A stretch of DNA of 64,000 nt from Candidatus Rhodobacter oscarellae (GCF_001078595.1 NZ_LFTY01000002.1:3172862-3236861); one strand, 5' to 3'. Shown: positions 37,868-47,504, counted from the first letter of the stretch. Translations and numbers: made by a program. Notes: generated by a model from the sequence alone, not told the origin.

Positions 37868-39304
37868 ATGGGATATGATTTTGTCATCACCGGCGGCACG
37901 GTTGTGTCGTCCTCCAGCAGTTTCCCGGCGGACATCGCCGTGGCGGGCGGAAAGATCGCCGCGATCCGCGGCGGCATTTCCGCCGCCCGGTCCGTGGACG
38001 CGACGGGCAAGCTTGTCCTGCCGGGCGGCGTCGACCCGCATTGCCATATCGAGCAGCTCTCGGGCATGGGCCAGTGGAACGCCGACACGTTCGAGACCGC
38101 CACGCGGTCCGCGGCGATGGGGGGCACGACCTCGGTGATCTCCTTCGCGGCCCAGCAAAAGGGCGAGCCCTTGGCCGACACCCTGGCGGGCTACGCCGCG
38201 CGGGCCAAGCGCGGCGCGATGGTCGATCACGCGTTCCATCTGTTTCTGTCCGACCTCTCGGTGCCGGATTTCGACGCCGACCTGCTGCGGCTCGTCGCCG
38301 ATGGGCACCGCTCGCTGAAGGTCTTCACCACCTATAACGTGGCGCTGGCGGATGCCGAGATCCTGCACGTGTTGTCCCTGGCGCGCCAGGCCGGGGCCAC
38401 GGTCTGCGTGCATGCCGAGAACGACGCGCTGATCCAGCACACCAAGAGCGGGCTGATCGCCGCCGGGCTGCACCGGCCCGAGCACCACGCGCTGTCCCGC
38501 CCGCGCATGGCCGAGATCGAGGCGGTCGAGCGCATCTGCCGCTTCGCCGCCTTCCTGGACGCGCCGGTGATGCTGTTCCACATCTCCACCCGCGAGGCGG
38601 TGGAGGTGATCCGCAAGGCCCGCGCCGCGGGCGTGCCCATCTGGGCCGAGACCTGCCCGCATTACCTCTTGATGACCGACGAGGTGCTAAAGCGCGACGG
38701 CATCGAGGGCGCCAAGTGGATGTGCTGCCCGCCGCAGCGGCAAGAGGCCGACCAAGAGGCGCTTTGGGAGGCGCTGAGCGACGGCACGATCGACCTGATC
38801 TCTTCGGATCACGCGCCATACCGCTTTGACGAGACGGGCAAGCTGGCCGCCGGGCCGGGCGCGCGGTTCGACCAGATCGGGGTGGGCCTGCCGGGGCTAG
38901 AGACCCGCTTGCCGGTGCTCTTTGACGCCATGCGGCGGCGCGGCCTGCCGCATCAGGACTTCGTGCGCTGGACGTCCAGCCGCGCGGCAGAGCTCTATGG
39001 CCTGCCGGGCAAGGGCGACATCGCGCCGGGCCTGGATGCCGACCTGGTGATCTGGGATCCGGAGCGCGCGCGGACCTACGGCGCCAACGACCTGCATGAC
39101 AATGTCGGCTATAACCCCTGGGAGGGGCGCGAGGTCATCGGCTGGCCAGAGCGGGTGTTCCTGCGCGGCGAGGAACTTGTGGCAGACGGCGCGTTGCGCG
39201 CCAAACCCGGGCAGGGCCAGTGGCTCGACCGCCCCAATAGCGGGATGCGACCCACCGGGTCGCCATCCTATGAGATTCAAACCATCCAGGAGACCGACGC
39301 ATGA
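37868..39304 (+). CDS. D-hydantoinase / dihydropyrimidinase-like amidohydrolase
   Basis: This 478-residue cyclic-amide hydrolase opens hydantoins or dihydropyrimidines to N-carbamoyl amino acids. Metal-centre residues are visible: GGVDPHCHIEQ (first His pair), SLKVFTTYNV (Lys that is carbamylated), CVHAEN, FHISTRE, and ISSDHAPY (catalytic Asp). NVGYNPWEGREVIGWPERVFLRGE is typical of the family C-terminus. The frame opens at 37745, but similarity begins at ATG 37868 (MGYDFVITGG). It is the first of four tightly linked genes (VOC, racemase, DapA-like). A carbamoylase is missing, so products must be processed by another enzyme. Confidence 0.85.
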   Translation: MGYDFVITGGTVVSSSSSFPADIAVAGGKIAAIRGGISAARSVDATGKLVLPGGVDPHCHIEQLSGMGQWNADTFETATRSAAMGGTTSVISFAAQQKGEPLADTLAGYAARAKRGAMVDHAFHLFLSDLSVPDFDADLLRLVADGHRSLKVFTTYNVALADAEILHVLSLARQAGATVCVHAENDALIQHTKSGLIAAGLHRPEHHALSRPRMAEIEAVERICRFAAFLDAPVMLFHISTREAVEVIRKARAAGVPIWAETCPHYLLMTDEVLKRDGIEGAKWMCCPPQRQEADQEALWEALSDGTIDLISSDHAPYRFDETGKLAAGPGARFDQIGVGLPGLETRLPVLFDAMRRRGLPHQDFVRWTSSRAAELYGLPGKGDIAPGLDADLVIWDPERARTYGANDLHDNVGYNPWEGREVIGWPERVFLRGEELVADGALRAKPGQGQWLDRPNSGMRPTGSPSYEIQTIQETDA

Positions 39305-39696
39305 CCCGACCCGAGGGACCCAACACGCTTGCCATCACCTTCTTCTATTACAAGGACCTGCCCCGCGCGATGGCGTTCTACGAGGACGTCCTGGGCCTGC
39401 CGCTGGCCATCGACCAGGGCTGGAGCAAGATCTACCGCGTCGCCGAGGGGGCCCATATCGGCCTGGTGGACGAGAACCACGGCATGAACAGCTGGACCTC
39501 CGAGAAGCCGGTGCAGTTCTGCATCCGCGTGCCCGACGTGGACGCCTGGTATGCCTATGTCGAGGCGCTGGGCCTGCCCGGCCAGTCAGAGCTGTTCGTG
39601 AACGACGAGATCGGCATCCGCGCCTTCGTCTTCGACGACCCCGAGGGCTACCAGGTCGAAATCCAGACATCGACCCGGGACGACATTCTTCTCTGA
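39301..39696 (+). CDS. VOC-family protein in the hydantoinase operon
   Basis: This 131-residue VOC protein has AITFFYYKDLPRAMAFYEDVLGLPLAIDQGWSKIYRVAEGAHIGLVDENHGMN and FCIRVPDVDAWYAYVEALG, then RAFVFDDPEGYQVEIQT. The final Glu and the early His are at usual metal positions. Its ATG overlaps the hydantoinase stop (ATGA), and the racemase begins two bases after its stop. The tight packing says the product is used in the same pathway, perhaps as an isomerase or dioxygenase-like enzyme on the keto or amino acid product. Confidence 0.83.
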   Translation: MTRPEGPNTLAITFFYYKDLPRAMAFYEDVLGLPLAIDQGWSKIYRVAEGAHIGLVDENHGMNSWTSEKPVQFCIRVPDVDAWYAYVEALGLPGQSELFVNDEIGIRAFVFDDPEGYQVEIQTSTRDDILL

Positions 39697-39698
39697 GC

Positions 39699-40367
39699 AT
39701 GACGCTCTTTGTCATCAACCCCAACTCCAGCGAAGCGGTGACCGCCGGCATCGACGCCGCGGTCGATCCGCTGCGCGCCTTCGGCACGCCGATCCGCTGC
39801 GTGACGCTGGCCGAGGGCCCGCCGGGCATCGAGAGCCAGGCCCAGGCGGATGGCACCATCGCGCCGATGCTCAAGCTGGCGGAGCGGCTAGAGGGCGAGG
39901 CGCAGGGCTTTGTGATCGCCTGCTTCGGGGACCCGGGGCTGCACGCCCTGCGTGACCGCACCACCCTGGCCGTGGTGGGCATCCAGGAGGCCGCGGTGAT
40001 GGCGGCGATGCAGCTGGGGCAGCGCTTCGGGGTGATCTCGATCCTGCCTGGGTCCATCCCGCGGCACATGCGCAGCTTTGGCGCCATGGGCGTGCTGGAC
40101 CGGCTGGCGGGGGATCGCGCCCTGGGTCTGGGCGTGGTGCAGCTCGCCGATCCCGGCGCGACCGAGCAGGCCATGGTGGACACCGCGCGGGCGCTGCGCG
40201 ACCAGGACGGCGCGGACGTGCTGATCATGGGCTGCGCCGGCATGGCGCGCTATCGCAAAACGCTTCAGGTCGCCACCGGCCTGCCCGTGGTCGAGCCCTG
40301 CCAGGTCGCGGCCGCGCAGGCTCTGGGCCAGATCGCACTCAACCTATCACATTGGAGGGACCGATGA
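39699..40367 (+). CDS. Asp/Glu/hydantoin racemase
   Basis: This 222-residue cofactor-independent racemase has the two catalytic cysteines: FVIACFGDPGLHALR in the N-terminal half and DVLIMGCAGMARYRK in the C-terminal half. The CFGDPGL motif points to the hydantoin/allantoin racemase branch (HyuE-like) more than to glutamate racemase. It starts with VINPNSSEAVTAGIDAAVDPL. It would turn one hydantoin enantiomer into the form accepted by the neighbouring hydantoinase. It begins two bases after the VOC stop, and its own stop overlaps the next gene (ATGA). Confidence 0.87.
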   Translation: MTLFVINPNSSEAVTAGIDAAVDPLRAFGTPIRCVTLAEGPPGIESQAQADGTIAPMLKLAERLEGEAQGFVIACFGDPGLHALRDRTTLAVVGIQEAAVMAAMQLGQRFGVISILPGSIPRHMRSFGAMGVLDRLAGDRALGLGVVQLADPGATEQAMVDTARALRDQDGADVLIMGCAGMARYRKTLQVATGLPVVEPCQVAAAQALGQIALNLSHWRDR

Positions 40368-41281
40368 TCGACGAAACCGCCAGCGGCGTATACACCATTG
40401 CCTGCACGCCATTCATGCCCGACGGGGCGCTGGACCTTGGCAGCGTCGACACGATGGTCGATTTCTACGCCGAATGCGGCGCCACGGGGCTGACCATCCT
40501 TGGGATGATGGGCGAGGCGGGCAAGCTCTCGGCCGCCGAGAGCGAGGCGGTGATCCGCCGCGTCACCGCGCGTACCGACCTGCCCGTGGTGGTGGGCGTC
40601 TCGTCGCCGGGCTTTGCGGCGATGGAGGCGCTGTCGAAGACCGCGATGGATGCGGGCGCGGCGGGGGTGATGATCGCGCCTGCGGGCGGCCTGAAGACCG
40701 ACGGCCAGATCATTGACTACTACCACAACGTGGCCGAGACCGTGGCCGACGCGCCCTGGGTGCTGCAGGACTTCCCGCTGGCCACGAATGTAGTGATCCC
40801 GACCGAGGTGATCCTGCGGATCGTCGCGGATTGCCCAGGATGCGTGATGCTCAAGCACGAGGACTGGCCCGGGCTGGCCAAGATCTCGGCGCTGCGGGCG
40901 GCCTCTGATGCGGGTGACGCGCGGCGCATCTCGATCCTATGCGGCAATGCGGGGCTTTTCCTGGTCGAGGAGATGGGGCGCGGCGCGGATGGCGCGATGA
41001 CCGGCTTTGCGTATCCCGAGATGATGCGCGACGTGGTGTCCCGGATGCAAGCGGGCGACGAGACCGCCGCGCGGGACATCTTCGACGCCTACCTGCCGCT
41101 GGTGCGCTATGAGAGCCAGCCGGGCCTGGGGCTGAGCGTGCGCAAGCACATCCTGGCGCAGCGCGGCGCGATTGCGCACCCAACGGTGCGGCGACCCGGC
41201 GGTGGGCTGGCGGCGGCGGCGCAGGCCGAGGTTGCAACCATGATCGCGCGGCAAGAGGCGCGGCTGGCGGCGCTGGCCTAA
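40364..41281 (+). CDS. Dihydrodipicolinate-synthase-family aldolase/lyase, atypical active site
   Basis: This 305-residue DapA-superfamily TIM barrel has the Schiff-base Lys in GCVMLKHEDWPGL. Two typical active-site parts differ: the GTTGE-type motif is ILGMMGEAGKLS, and the catalytic Tyr of the VLYNVP motif is replaced (WVLQDFPLATNVVI). It is therefore unlikely to be a lysine-pathway DapA; related enzymes are 2-oxoacid aldolases or dehydratases. As the last gene of the hydantoinase operon it may process the keto or carbamoyl product. ATGA overlap at the start; a TTG at 40352 is possible but weaker. Confidence 0.82.
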   Translation: MIDETASGVYTIACTPFMPDGALDLGSVDTMVDFYAECGATGLTILGMMGEAGKLSAAESEAVIRRVTARTDLPVVVGVSSPGFAAMEALSKTAMDAGAAGVMIAPAGGLKTDGQIIDYYHNVAETVADAPWVLQDFPLATNVVIPTEVILRIVADCPGCVMLKHEDWPGLAKISALRAASDAGDARRISILCGNAGLFLVEEMGRGADGAMTGFAYPEMMRDVVSRMQAGDETAARDIFDAYLPLVRYESQPGLGLSVRKHILAQRGAIAHPTVRRPGGGLAAAAQAEVATMIARQEARLAALA

Positions 41282-44896: not shown

Positions 44897-46024
44897 ATGT
44901 CGAAGTTCACATTCCAGCTCAGCGCCACAGACGGCCGCGCCCGCACCGGCGTGATCTCCACCCCCCGGGGCGAGATCCGCACGCCCGCCTTCATGCCCGT
45001 GGGCACCGCCGCCACTGTGAAGGCCATGCTGCCCGAGAGCGTGCGCGCCACCGGCGCCGACATCCTCTTGGGCAACACCTACCACCTGATGCTGCGCCCC
45101 ACGGCGGAACGCATCGCCCGCCTGGGCGGGCTGCACGGGTTCATGAACTGGGATCGGCCGATCCTGACCGACTCCGGCGGCTTCCAGGTGATGTCGCTGG
45201 CGGATCTGCGCAAGCTGACCGAGGAGGGCGTGTCGTTCAAATCCCATATCGACGGCTCCAAGCACATGCTGAGCCCCGAGCGCTCGATGGAGATCCAGCG
45301 CCTGCTGGGCTCTGACATCGTGATGTGCTTTGACGAATGCCCCGCGCTGCCCGCCGAGCGGGCGCAGATCGCCGAGAGCATGCGGCTGTCGATGCGCTGG
45401 GCGCAGCGCTCGCGGGACGCGTTCGGGGACCGGCCCGGGCACGCGCTGTTCGGGATCCAGCAGGGCGGGCTAGAGCAGGACCTGCGGGCCGAGAGCGCCG
45501 AGGCTTTGCGCGGCATCGGGTTCGACGGCTACGCCATCGGGGGCCTCGCGGTGGGCGAGGGCCAAGAGGCGATGTTCGGCTGCCTGGACTACGCGCCGGA
45601 CCAGCTGCCCAGCGACAAGCCGCGCTATCTGATGGGGGTGGGCAAGCCCGACGACATTGTCGGCGCGGTCAAGCGGGGCGTGGACATGATGGACTGCGTG
45701 CTGCCCTCGCGCTCGGGGCGCACCGGGCAGGCCTGGACGCGGCGCGGGCCGGTGGCGATCAAGAACGCGCGCCATGCCGACGACCCGCGGCCTCTGGACG
45801 AGACCTGCACCTGCCCGGCCTGCACCGGCTATAGCCGCGCCTACTTGCACCACGTCTTCCGCGCGGGCGAGATGATCTCGGGCATGCTGCTGACCTGGCA
45901 CAACCTGCATTACTTCCAAGAGCTCATGTCCGGGATGCGCGCGGCGATTGCCTCTGGCACGTTCGAGGCCTGGGAGGCCGAGTTCCACGCCCAGCGCGCG
46001 CTGGGGGATATCGAACGGGTATGA
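44897..46024 (+). CDS. tgt: Queuine tRNA-ribosyltransferase (tRNA-guanine transglycosylase)
   Basis: This 375-residue enzyme swaps guanine for a queuine precursor at the wobble base of tRNAs for Asp, Asn, His and Tyr. It shows [27 protein letters not shown], the catalytic Asp in [25 protein letters not shown], and the zinc cluster with three cysteines and a His ([18 protein letters not shown]). The final segment [19 protein letters not shown] is typical. Length and motifs are complete. The start is ATG 44897, about 80 bases after the composite element. Confidence 0.95.
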
Positions 46025-46253
46025 CCGGGCGCGCGCCCCCGGGGCGGCGACCGAATGTAAGGGCTTAAGCGTCGTTTCCGCGCCGCGTAAGAACGGCCGC
46101 CTTGCCAAGCGGCTTTGTCGCGGCTGTATTCCCCGAAGTCGCTCCGGTGTTGTTATCTGGAACCCAGCGGAACTTAGGGTGACCTGGTCGGGCCCAGTTC
46201 ATCGGGAAAGCCCCTTGCCCTGGTTCTGGCGCGCAAGCAAAGGAAACAGCGAC

Positions 46254-47504
46254 ATGCAAGACGGCGACCTGGCAAGCGTAGACGTGCTTCAACTTGAGGC
46301 CGCAAAGCAGCATCTGTCCACCATGCCGCAGGTGAACCAGCGCAGCTTGCGGCAGGAACGGCTGGATCGGCTGCAAGCCGAGCTGCAAAGGCGCGACCTC
46401 GGCGGCATGCTGCTCTATGACCCGGTTAATGTGCGCTACGCGACGGATTGCCGGAACATGCAGATCTGGACCATGCACAACTCCGCGCGCTACTGCCTGG
46501 TGCCCAGCGAGGGCAAGGCGATCATCTTTGACTACGTGAATTGCGAGCATCTGTCCGAGGGGATCGAGACGATCGGAGAGACGCGGCCCGCGGTCCTGTG
46601 GTTCTATCACAGCGCCGGAAGCAACCGCCAAGCGCTGATGGAGAAATGGGCCGACGAGGTGGCCGACGTCATTTCCGAACGCTTCCCCAACCAGCGGATC
46701 GCCATCGACAGGCTTGACGGCGAGGCCCGCGACGCGTTGGAGAGGCGGCAGGTTTCCGTGTCCTTCGGGCAGGATGTGATCGAGCACGCGCGCTGCATCA
46801 AGACCCCAGAGGAGCAAAAGGCCCAGGCGCGCTCTGCCTTTGTCTGCGAGACCGGGCTGGCGCGGCTCAAGGAGATCACCCGCCCCGGCATCACCGAAAA
46901 CGAGCTTTGGGCGACATTTGGCGCGGTCAACGCATCGCTCGGCGGAGACTACGTTGAGACGCGGCTGCTTGTCTCGGGCGAGCGCACGAACCCCTGGTAC
47001 AGCGAGGCCAGCGAGAAGCCCGTGCAGGTGGGCGAGCTGGTGGCCTTCGACACCGATATGATCGGCCCCTATGGCTACAGCACCGATATCTCACGCACCT
47101 GGATGTGCCAGGACAAGCCCCCGACCGAGGAACAAAAGACGGTCTATAAGCTGTCCCATGAGCAGGTGCATCACAACATGGCGCTGCTGCAGCCCGGCCT
47201 TGGGTTCCGTGAGCTGGCCGAGAAATCCTGGAAGATCCCGGACCGGTACGAGGAATTCGAGGTCGGCGTGATCGTGCACGGCATCGGCATGTGCAACGAA
47301 TACCCGCAGGTGGCCCCTTTGAAGTGGTTCGAGCAAACCGGCTATGATGGCATGTTCCAACCGGGCATGACCGTATCGGTCGAAAGCTATATCGGCGAAA
47401 AGGGCGCCAAAGAGGGCGTGAAGCTCGAGGAAATGGTGCGCATCACGGAGAATGGATGCGAGCTTGTGGCCCGGTTCCCCTTTGAGGACGACCTCCTCAA
47501 CTGA
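46254..47504 (+). CDS. M24-family metallohydrolase, close to DddP but with altered catalytic residue
   Basis: This 416-residue protein has the creatinase/peptidase M24 fold. The metal ligands are all present with the spacing of the DMSP lyase DddP: Asp266, Asp268 and Asp278 (AFDTDMIGPYGYSTDISRTW), His342 (VHGIGMCNEYP), Glu377 (SVESYIG) and Glu392 (VKLEEMV). The motifs RYATDCRNMQIW and SGERTNPWYSE also match. However, from memory, DddP has an Asp six residues after the metal His as catalytic base; here it is Asn348, and the Tyr five residues before that His is Val337. It may thus be a non-DMSP relative such as a peptidase. AAAGGAAAC precedes ATG 46254. Confidence 0.8.
   Translation: MQDGDLASVDVLQLEAAKQHLSTMPQVNQRSLRQERLDRLQAELQRRDLGGMLLYDPVNVRYATDCRNMQIWTMHNSARYCLVPSEGKAIIFDYVNCEHLSEGIETIGETRPAVLWFYHSAGSNRQALMEKWADEVADVISERFPNQRIAIDRLDGEARDALERRQVSVSFGQDVIEHARCIKTPEEQKAQARSAFVCETGLARLKEITRPGITENELWATFGAVNASLGGDYVETRLLVSGERTNPWYSEASEKPVQVGELVAFDTDMIGPYGYSTDISRTWMCQDKPPTEEQKTVYKLSHEQVHHNMALLQPGLGFRELAEKSWKIPDRYEEFEVGVIVHGIGMCNEYPQVAPLKWFEQTGYDGMFQPGMTVSVESYIGEKGAKEGVKLEEMVRITENGCELVARFPFEDDLLN

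Follow-up and report, generated by a model that had tools for sequence, protein, structure and literature searches.

A conserved hydantoinase-type gene block with an atypical DapA-like enzyme in Candidatus Rhodobacter oscarellae and its relatives

Layout and conservation of the block

The window analysed here, the whole stretch of 64,000 nt from Candidatus Rhodobacter oscarellae (GCF_001078595.1 NZ_LFTY01000002.1:3172862-3236861), contains at positions 37868-41281 a block of four genes that is a real and conserved, and apparently undescribed, variant of hydantoin catabolism. Its gene order recurs in many marine-type Rhodobacteraceae, and its products very probably degrade a hydantoin-like ring compound by way of an aldolase-family enzyme adapted to a non-aldolase reaction. 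The families of its components are known; their combination, and the residue set of its DapA-like member in a hydantoin context, look new. The four genes are:

37868..39304, + strand: HYD, hydantoinase/dihydropyrimidinase-family cyclic amidohydrolase, 478 aa (TIGR02033; 1yny alignment)
39301..39696, + strand: VOC, vicinal-oxygen-chelate fold protein, 131 aa (PF00903; AlphaFold; Foldseek)
39699..40367, + strand: RAC, hydantoin-racemase-type Asp/Glu racemase, 222 aa (PF01177; nearest PDB entry 3qvj)
40364..41281, + strand: DAP, dihydrodipicolinate synthase (DHDPS)-superfamily enzyme, 305 aa (PF00701; nearest PDB entry 3dz1)

As the original prediction had it, the four ORFs overlap or nearly touch on the + strand, with a 4-bp overlap of HYD and VOC, a 2-bp gap between VOC and RAC, and a 4-bp overlap (ATGA) of RAC and DAP. 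All products matched their Pfam families above cut-off (HYD, PF01979; VOC, PF00903; RAC, PF01177; DAP, PF00701). The nearest flanks in the window are an opposite-strand gene for an ATP-grasp (RimK-like) protein and, upstream, an unrelated gene; among the window genes, no carbamoylase, transporter, or regulator gene adjoins the block, which for transporter and regulator agrees with what had been noted before.

The original prediction had asked for a neighbourhood survey in relatives, and there the block proved to be conserved. In the genome collection, the surroundings of the 80 best-matching DAP homologues showed the order HYD-VOC-RAC-DAP, on the same strand as in the window, at 27 further loci, and HYD-RAC-DAP without a close VOC at five more. 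When 197 genomes of the order were sampled (HYD called at E ≤ 1e-150, DAP at E ≤ 1e-80), HYD was present in 36 and DAP in 52, and every one of the 36 HYD genomes also carried DAP (hypergeometric P = 2.9e-27); in a sample of 120 genomes of the family, the same was true for 19 of 19 (P = 3.4e-15), both P values being optimistic because the sampled genomes are related to one another. HYD and DAP lie on the same strand in 28 of the 36 genomes, separated by 1045-1126 bp, a distance that VOC and RAC together fill; in seven, DAP lies ∼12.7 kb from HYD, in the opposite orientation and in a longer operon, and in the remaining one the distance is ∼3 kb. That the pair is kept in two different layouts argues for function despite the optimistic P values, and the linkage of HYD and DAP is beyond chance. 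The DAPs from Rhodobacteraceae blocks form a single clade (support 98/94), and the pairwise distances of HYD, VOC, RAC, and DAP are correlated (Spearman 0.37-0.77; none of 999 shuffles as high). The block is not universal, since DAP was not found in the single other genome of the same genus that was examined. HYD together with DAP is carried by about a fifth of the sampled genomes of the order, and no described substrate was found for the module.

If DAP and VOC were passengers with unrelated substrates, only RAC and HYD would form a functional pair. The existence of solo DAP genes (L017, L024, L037, and L043), and of otherwise intact blocks from which VOC is missing (L003, L014, L034, and L058), would fit such a situation. 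However, none of the 36 and 19 HYD genomes lacked DAP, the link survives a wholly different layout, and the association of RAC with DAP is kept across Rhodobacteraceae, Bosea, Microvirga, and Labrenzia, which makes passengers very unlikely.

Hydantoinase, racemase, and related operons

HYD scores 467.7 bits with the dihydropyrimidinase/D-hydantoinase model TIGR02033, above its cut-off of 393.25, and in the alignment with the D-hydantoinase 1yny all six metal ligands are present (H58, H60, K151, H182, H238, and D314); with K151, the counterpart of the lysine that is carbamylated in relatives, the binuclear metal set is complete. RAC (PF01177, 175.8 bits) keeps both catalytic cysteines, Cys75 and Cys179, and its motifs AC..DPG and GCAGMA are conserved; its nearest PDB entries are 3qvj, a putative hydantoin racemase, followed by 5lfd, an allantoin racemase. 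The intact metal ligands and cysteines support the earlier assignment of the operon to the hydantoin type. HYD scored below the cut-offs of PRK13404 (568 versus 647 bits) and of the ErtD models NF058538 and NF058539 (187.5 and 215.6 bits versus 600 and 650), and the allantoinase model was not passed. The scores under both ErtD cut-offs rule out that HYD is ErtD; that it is the dihydropyrimidinase of the pyrimidine pathway was likewise ruled out, the gene for that enzyme being located at C2:2445877 with carbamoylase-family and TetR genes nearby. A second hydantoinase locus of the genome (L112; G000:C2:1679000-1698000) encodes a PRK13404 hydantoinase (738 versus 647 bits) with two racemases around it, a GntR protein, an ABC transporter, a PuuE-like hydrolase, an amidase, a TRAP transporter, and an IlvD-type dehydratase.

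ErtD and ErtE convert hydantoin-5-propionate to glutamate. In Microvirga ossetica, the genes for both, and for the thiohydantoin desulfurase, were found among eight adjoining genes that include RAC, a GlcD-like oxidoreductase, DAP, and a short-chain dehydrogenase/reductase (SDR), all three being above their cut-offs (desulfurase, NF058529, 604 versus 440; ErtD, NF058538, 679 versus 600; ErtE, NF058540, 596 versus 520). Two Bosea-type loci carry the corresponding genes in like order, with ErtD reaching 670 bits in one of them and desulfurase and ErtE being assigned by clustering and position only. The operon was located as follows:

L085 5365-13706; L054 1359-9712; L060 1359-9712: eight-gene (thio)hydantoin operon (desulfurase, ErtD, ErtE, flavin reductase, RAC, GlcD-like, DAP, SDR)

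The position of RAC and DAP behind desulfurase, ErtD, and ErtE places them, by association, in (thio)hydantoin catabolism, and this connection makes the substrate range of the module testable. The roles of the flavin reductase, RAC, the GlcD-like protein, DAP, and the SDR in this pathway appear to be undescribed. An ErtD-like amidohydrolase scoring under the cut-off (489-501 bits) immediately precedes DAP in Martelella, Maritalea, and Rhizobium. On plasmids of Labrenzia and Sulfitobacter, VOC, RAC, and DAP are part of a longer operon with a GntR regulator, a peptide-type ABC transporter, one or two ATZ/TRZ-type amidohydrolases, and an SDR, and hydA is divergent. A Sulfitobacter-type ATZ/TRZ partner encoded in trans in Ca. 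R. oscarellae was rejected (best match 29% identity), and production of a thiohydantoin substrate by a desulfurase in this organism was ruled out at a best score of 82 bits.

Hydantoinases are promiscuous, and HYD might open another cyclic amide (a dihydropyrimidine, imide, lactam, or diketopiperazine), so that the operon would not serve hydantoins at all. The score under the PRK13404 cut-off, the N-terminal loop (HIEQxSGxGxxNAD), which differs from that of D-hydantoinase, and the occurrence of DAP homologues beside 5-oxoprolinase would be consistent with such a substrate. Yet RAC, with its two cysteines, belongs with the hydantoin/allantoin racemases, a canonical dihydropyrimidinase is already encoded in the genome, near a carbamoylase-family gene, and the related operons carry thiohydantoin desulfurase and ErtD; a substrate outside the hydantoins is, therefore, considered unlikely.

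DAP and the proposed pathway

The description of the DapA-like enzyme as atypical, without the usual tyrosine and the GTTGE motif, was confirmed. The predicted Schiff-base lysine of DAP is Lys164, the position of the aldolase tyrosine is occupied by Gln135, Glu166 is located at Lys+2, GN is found at 194-195, and residues 47-51 are GMMGE where DapA has GTTGE; Q135, K164, E166, and N195 were invariant in every aligned DAP homologue. DAP scored below the DapA model TIGR00674 (84.3 bits versus a cut-off of 206), and its nearest solved structures were 3dz1 from Rhodopseudomonas palustris (332 bits) and then KdaD (7c0c, 81 bits), ahead of true DapA, with the same ranking in a profile search. In KdaD (L-2-keto-3-deoxyarabonate dehydratase), Gln143 stands where aldolases have their tyrosine and Lys171 is the Schiff-base residue; Glu173 deprotonates C3, Glu200 deprotonates C5, and aldol cleavage is lost (PMC9795676; see also PMC13398020). 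Q143, K171, and E173 map to Q135, K164, and E166 of DAP, which thus shares with KdaD the glutamine for tyrosine, the Schiff-base lysine, and the glutamate at Lys+2. In contrast, the second base Glu200 is not kept (Ala or Gly at DAP position 196), Glu199 is replaced by N195, the match is at 81 bits only, and the genomic context is one of amides, not of sugar acids. This residue mapping, with the Glu199/Glu200 pair replaced, excludes DapA as the identity of DAP and makes an aldolase or KdaD itself improbable. DapA and HypD had also been considered as identities of DAP and were rejected, a true DapA (L083; YNIP, GTTGE) and a HypD-like paralogue (L084, beside an aldehyde dehydrogenase) being encoded elsewhere in the genome. 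Another DHDPS paralogue (L082; G000:C2:2386783-2387625), with Gln for Tyr (LQNAP) and a Glu near the Lys (VKEETL), is a second KdaD-like, non-DapA enzyme.

The R. palustris protein 3dz1, a structural-genomics "dihydrodipicolinate synthase", belongs to the DAP subfamily and has its QDYP and KHEDWPG motifs; to our knowledge, no function has been established for this solved structure. DAP defines a DHDPS subfamily of at least several hundred genes annotated as "dihydrodipicolinate synthase family", the residues of which exclude ordinary DapA chemistry.

The reading we favour, to which we give about an even chance, sees in the block a conserved operon for the catabolism of a 5-substituted hydantoin or of a closely related cyclic ureide. 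Directly established are the order of the genes, their conservation and linkage, and the residues; the substrates, products, and reactions are proposed. RAC would interconvert the C5 enantiomers and HYD would open the ring to the N-carbamoyl (ureido) acid, as their families and intact catalytic residues suggest. The carbamoyl group would most likely be removed by a carbamoylase encoded elsewhere in the genome. The substrate of DAP may then be the carbon skeleton as its 2-oxo acid: Lys164 would form the Schiff base, Glu166 would take the C3 proton with the help of Gln135, and the leaving group at C4 would be eliminated. By analogy with KdaD, from which we infer this deprotonation at C3 and elimination at C4, the step would correspond to the first half of the KdaD reaction, without the second-base step. 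VOC would be auxiliary, and in other lineages the SDR oxidoreductase probably carries the DAP product onward. Such a module would tie the industrially used hydantoinases to a natural pathway. Methylglyoxal-arginine hydroimidazolones, diketopiperazines, and oxidised-thymine hydantoins were also considered as conceivable substrates.

Several observations weigh against this proposal. None of HYD, VOC, RAC, and DAP has an established substrate, HYD is not ErtD (216 bits; cut-off 650), no gene of the block accounts for the formation of the 2-oxo acid expected as the substrate of DAP, and a thiohydantoin desulfurase above cut-off was not found in the genome (best 82 bits). DAP homologues also occur beside 5-oxoprolinase and D-amino-acid transaminase, beside an M20-type peptidase (assigned by eye), and alone at the four solo loci mentioned above; at L093 (5953-10767), a DAP-SDR pair lies beside a D-glutamate cyclase domain protein, an alanine-racemase-type protein, and an RraA-family protein, a neighbourhood that suggests D-amino-acid catabolism. 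Given its solo genes and varied partners, DAP may have as its substrate a common metabolite instead of a product peculiar to hydantoins, and several routes may lead to that substrate.

The original prediction stated that the expected N-carbamoylase was missing, which holds for the operon, where none adjoins, but not for the genome. A single match to the carbamoylase-family model TIGR01879 was found above cut-off, in trans at C2:2448486 near the dihydropyrimidinase, and such a gene is present in 113 of the 120 family genomes, among them every one of the 19 HYD genomes. It had further been proposed that a lyase or aldol reaction takes the place of decarbamoylation. Given the dehydratase-type residues of DAP (Q/K/E), "lyase" fits better than "aldol"; given the carbamoylase in trans, and an operon shared by RAC and DAP with ErtE in Microvirga, a bypass is possible and not implied. 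In such a carbamoylase-independent route, a hydantoin whose side chain is a 2-oxo or 2-hydroxy acid would be opened by HYD to a 4-ureido-2-oxo acid, from which DAP would eliminate urea (or another group) at C4; DAP would here be acting as a Schiff-base member of the DHDPS superfamily that has the residues of a dehydratase but lacks the second base. The residues of DAP suit a reaction that removes a proton at C3 and a leaving group at C4 with no aldol cleavage, no carbamoylase gene lies beside the block, and the GlcD-like 2-hydroxyacid dehydrogenase between RAC and DAP in the Microvirga and Bosea operons is what a 2-hydroxy side chain would require. However, ErtE, a carbamoylase, is located inside the Microvirga operon of the same kind, carbamoylase-family genes are widespread in trans, and the window block has no dehydrogenase. 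We know of no urea elimination by a member of the DHDPS superfamily. The bypass is, thus, regarded as quite unlikely; if true, a urea-eliminating DAP would represent a new reaction of the superfamily and a new ending for hydantoin catabolism.

Known systems, VOC, and a further gene of the window

The block resembles the ergothioneine/thiohydantoin genes of Microvirga and Bosea in its racemase, DapA-like enzyme, and hydantoin ring opening; it differs from them in having a D-hydantoinase-type HYD for ErtD, an additional VOC, and no desulfurase, ErtE, SDR, or GlcD-like dehydrogenase. With classical hyu operons (racemase, hydantoinase, and N-carbamoylase) it has in common a hydantoin-type racemase and a hydantoinase with catalytic residues intact, whereas the carbamoylase is lacking and DapA-like and VOC genes are present instead. 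The long Sulfitobacter/Labrenzia operon shares VOC, RAC, DAP, and a related hydantoinase but has in addition a transporter, a GntR regulator, an amidohydrolase, and an SDR, and is, as far as found, also uncharacterised. No description of the four-gene set was found in the literature, which is a weak negative because subscription literature was mostly outside the search; PMC4016543 concerns a different purine route.

VOC is probably an auxiliary protein, predicted to be metal-free. Its fold was predicted with confidence (AlphaFold pLDDT 92.2), and Foldseek matched it about equally to glyoxalases, fosfomycin-resistance proteins, and drug-binding proteins (TM ∼0.7). Of the four glyoxalase metal positions, which we take to be those of E. 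coli GlxI and which were mapped by eye, three are replaced (I12, G54, and Q72 for H, E, and H) and E120 is kept, all of them invariant in 31 homologues; by this mapping, VOC fails the metal-ligand test for an enzyme of the glyoxalase I or extradiol dioxygenase type. Since several otherwise intact blocks do without VOC, it is not likely to stand in for a step that the pathway requires. At one locus (L023, 7510-8909), VOC directly precedes DAP with neither HYD nor RAC detected nearby; VOC and DAP are thus able to stay together without hydantoin genes.

Elsewhere in the window, positions 45948-47504 (+ strand) encode an M24-family protein that resembles the dimethylsulfoniopropionate lyase DddP; at 348 bits against the NF043017 cut-off of 600, it is regarded as a DddP-like paralogue and not as DddP.

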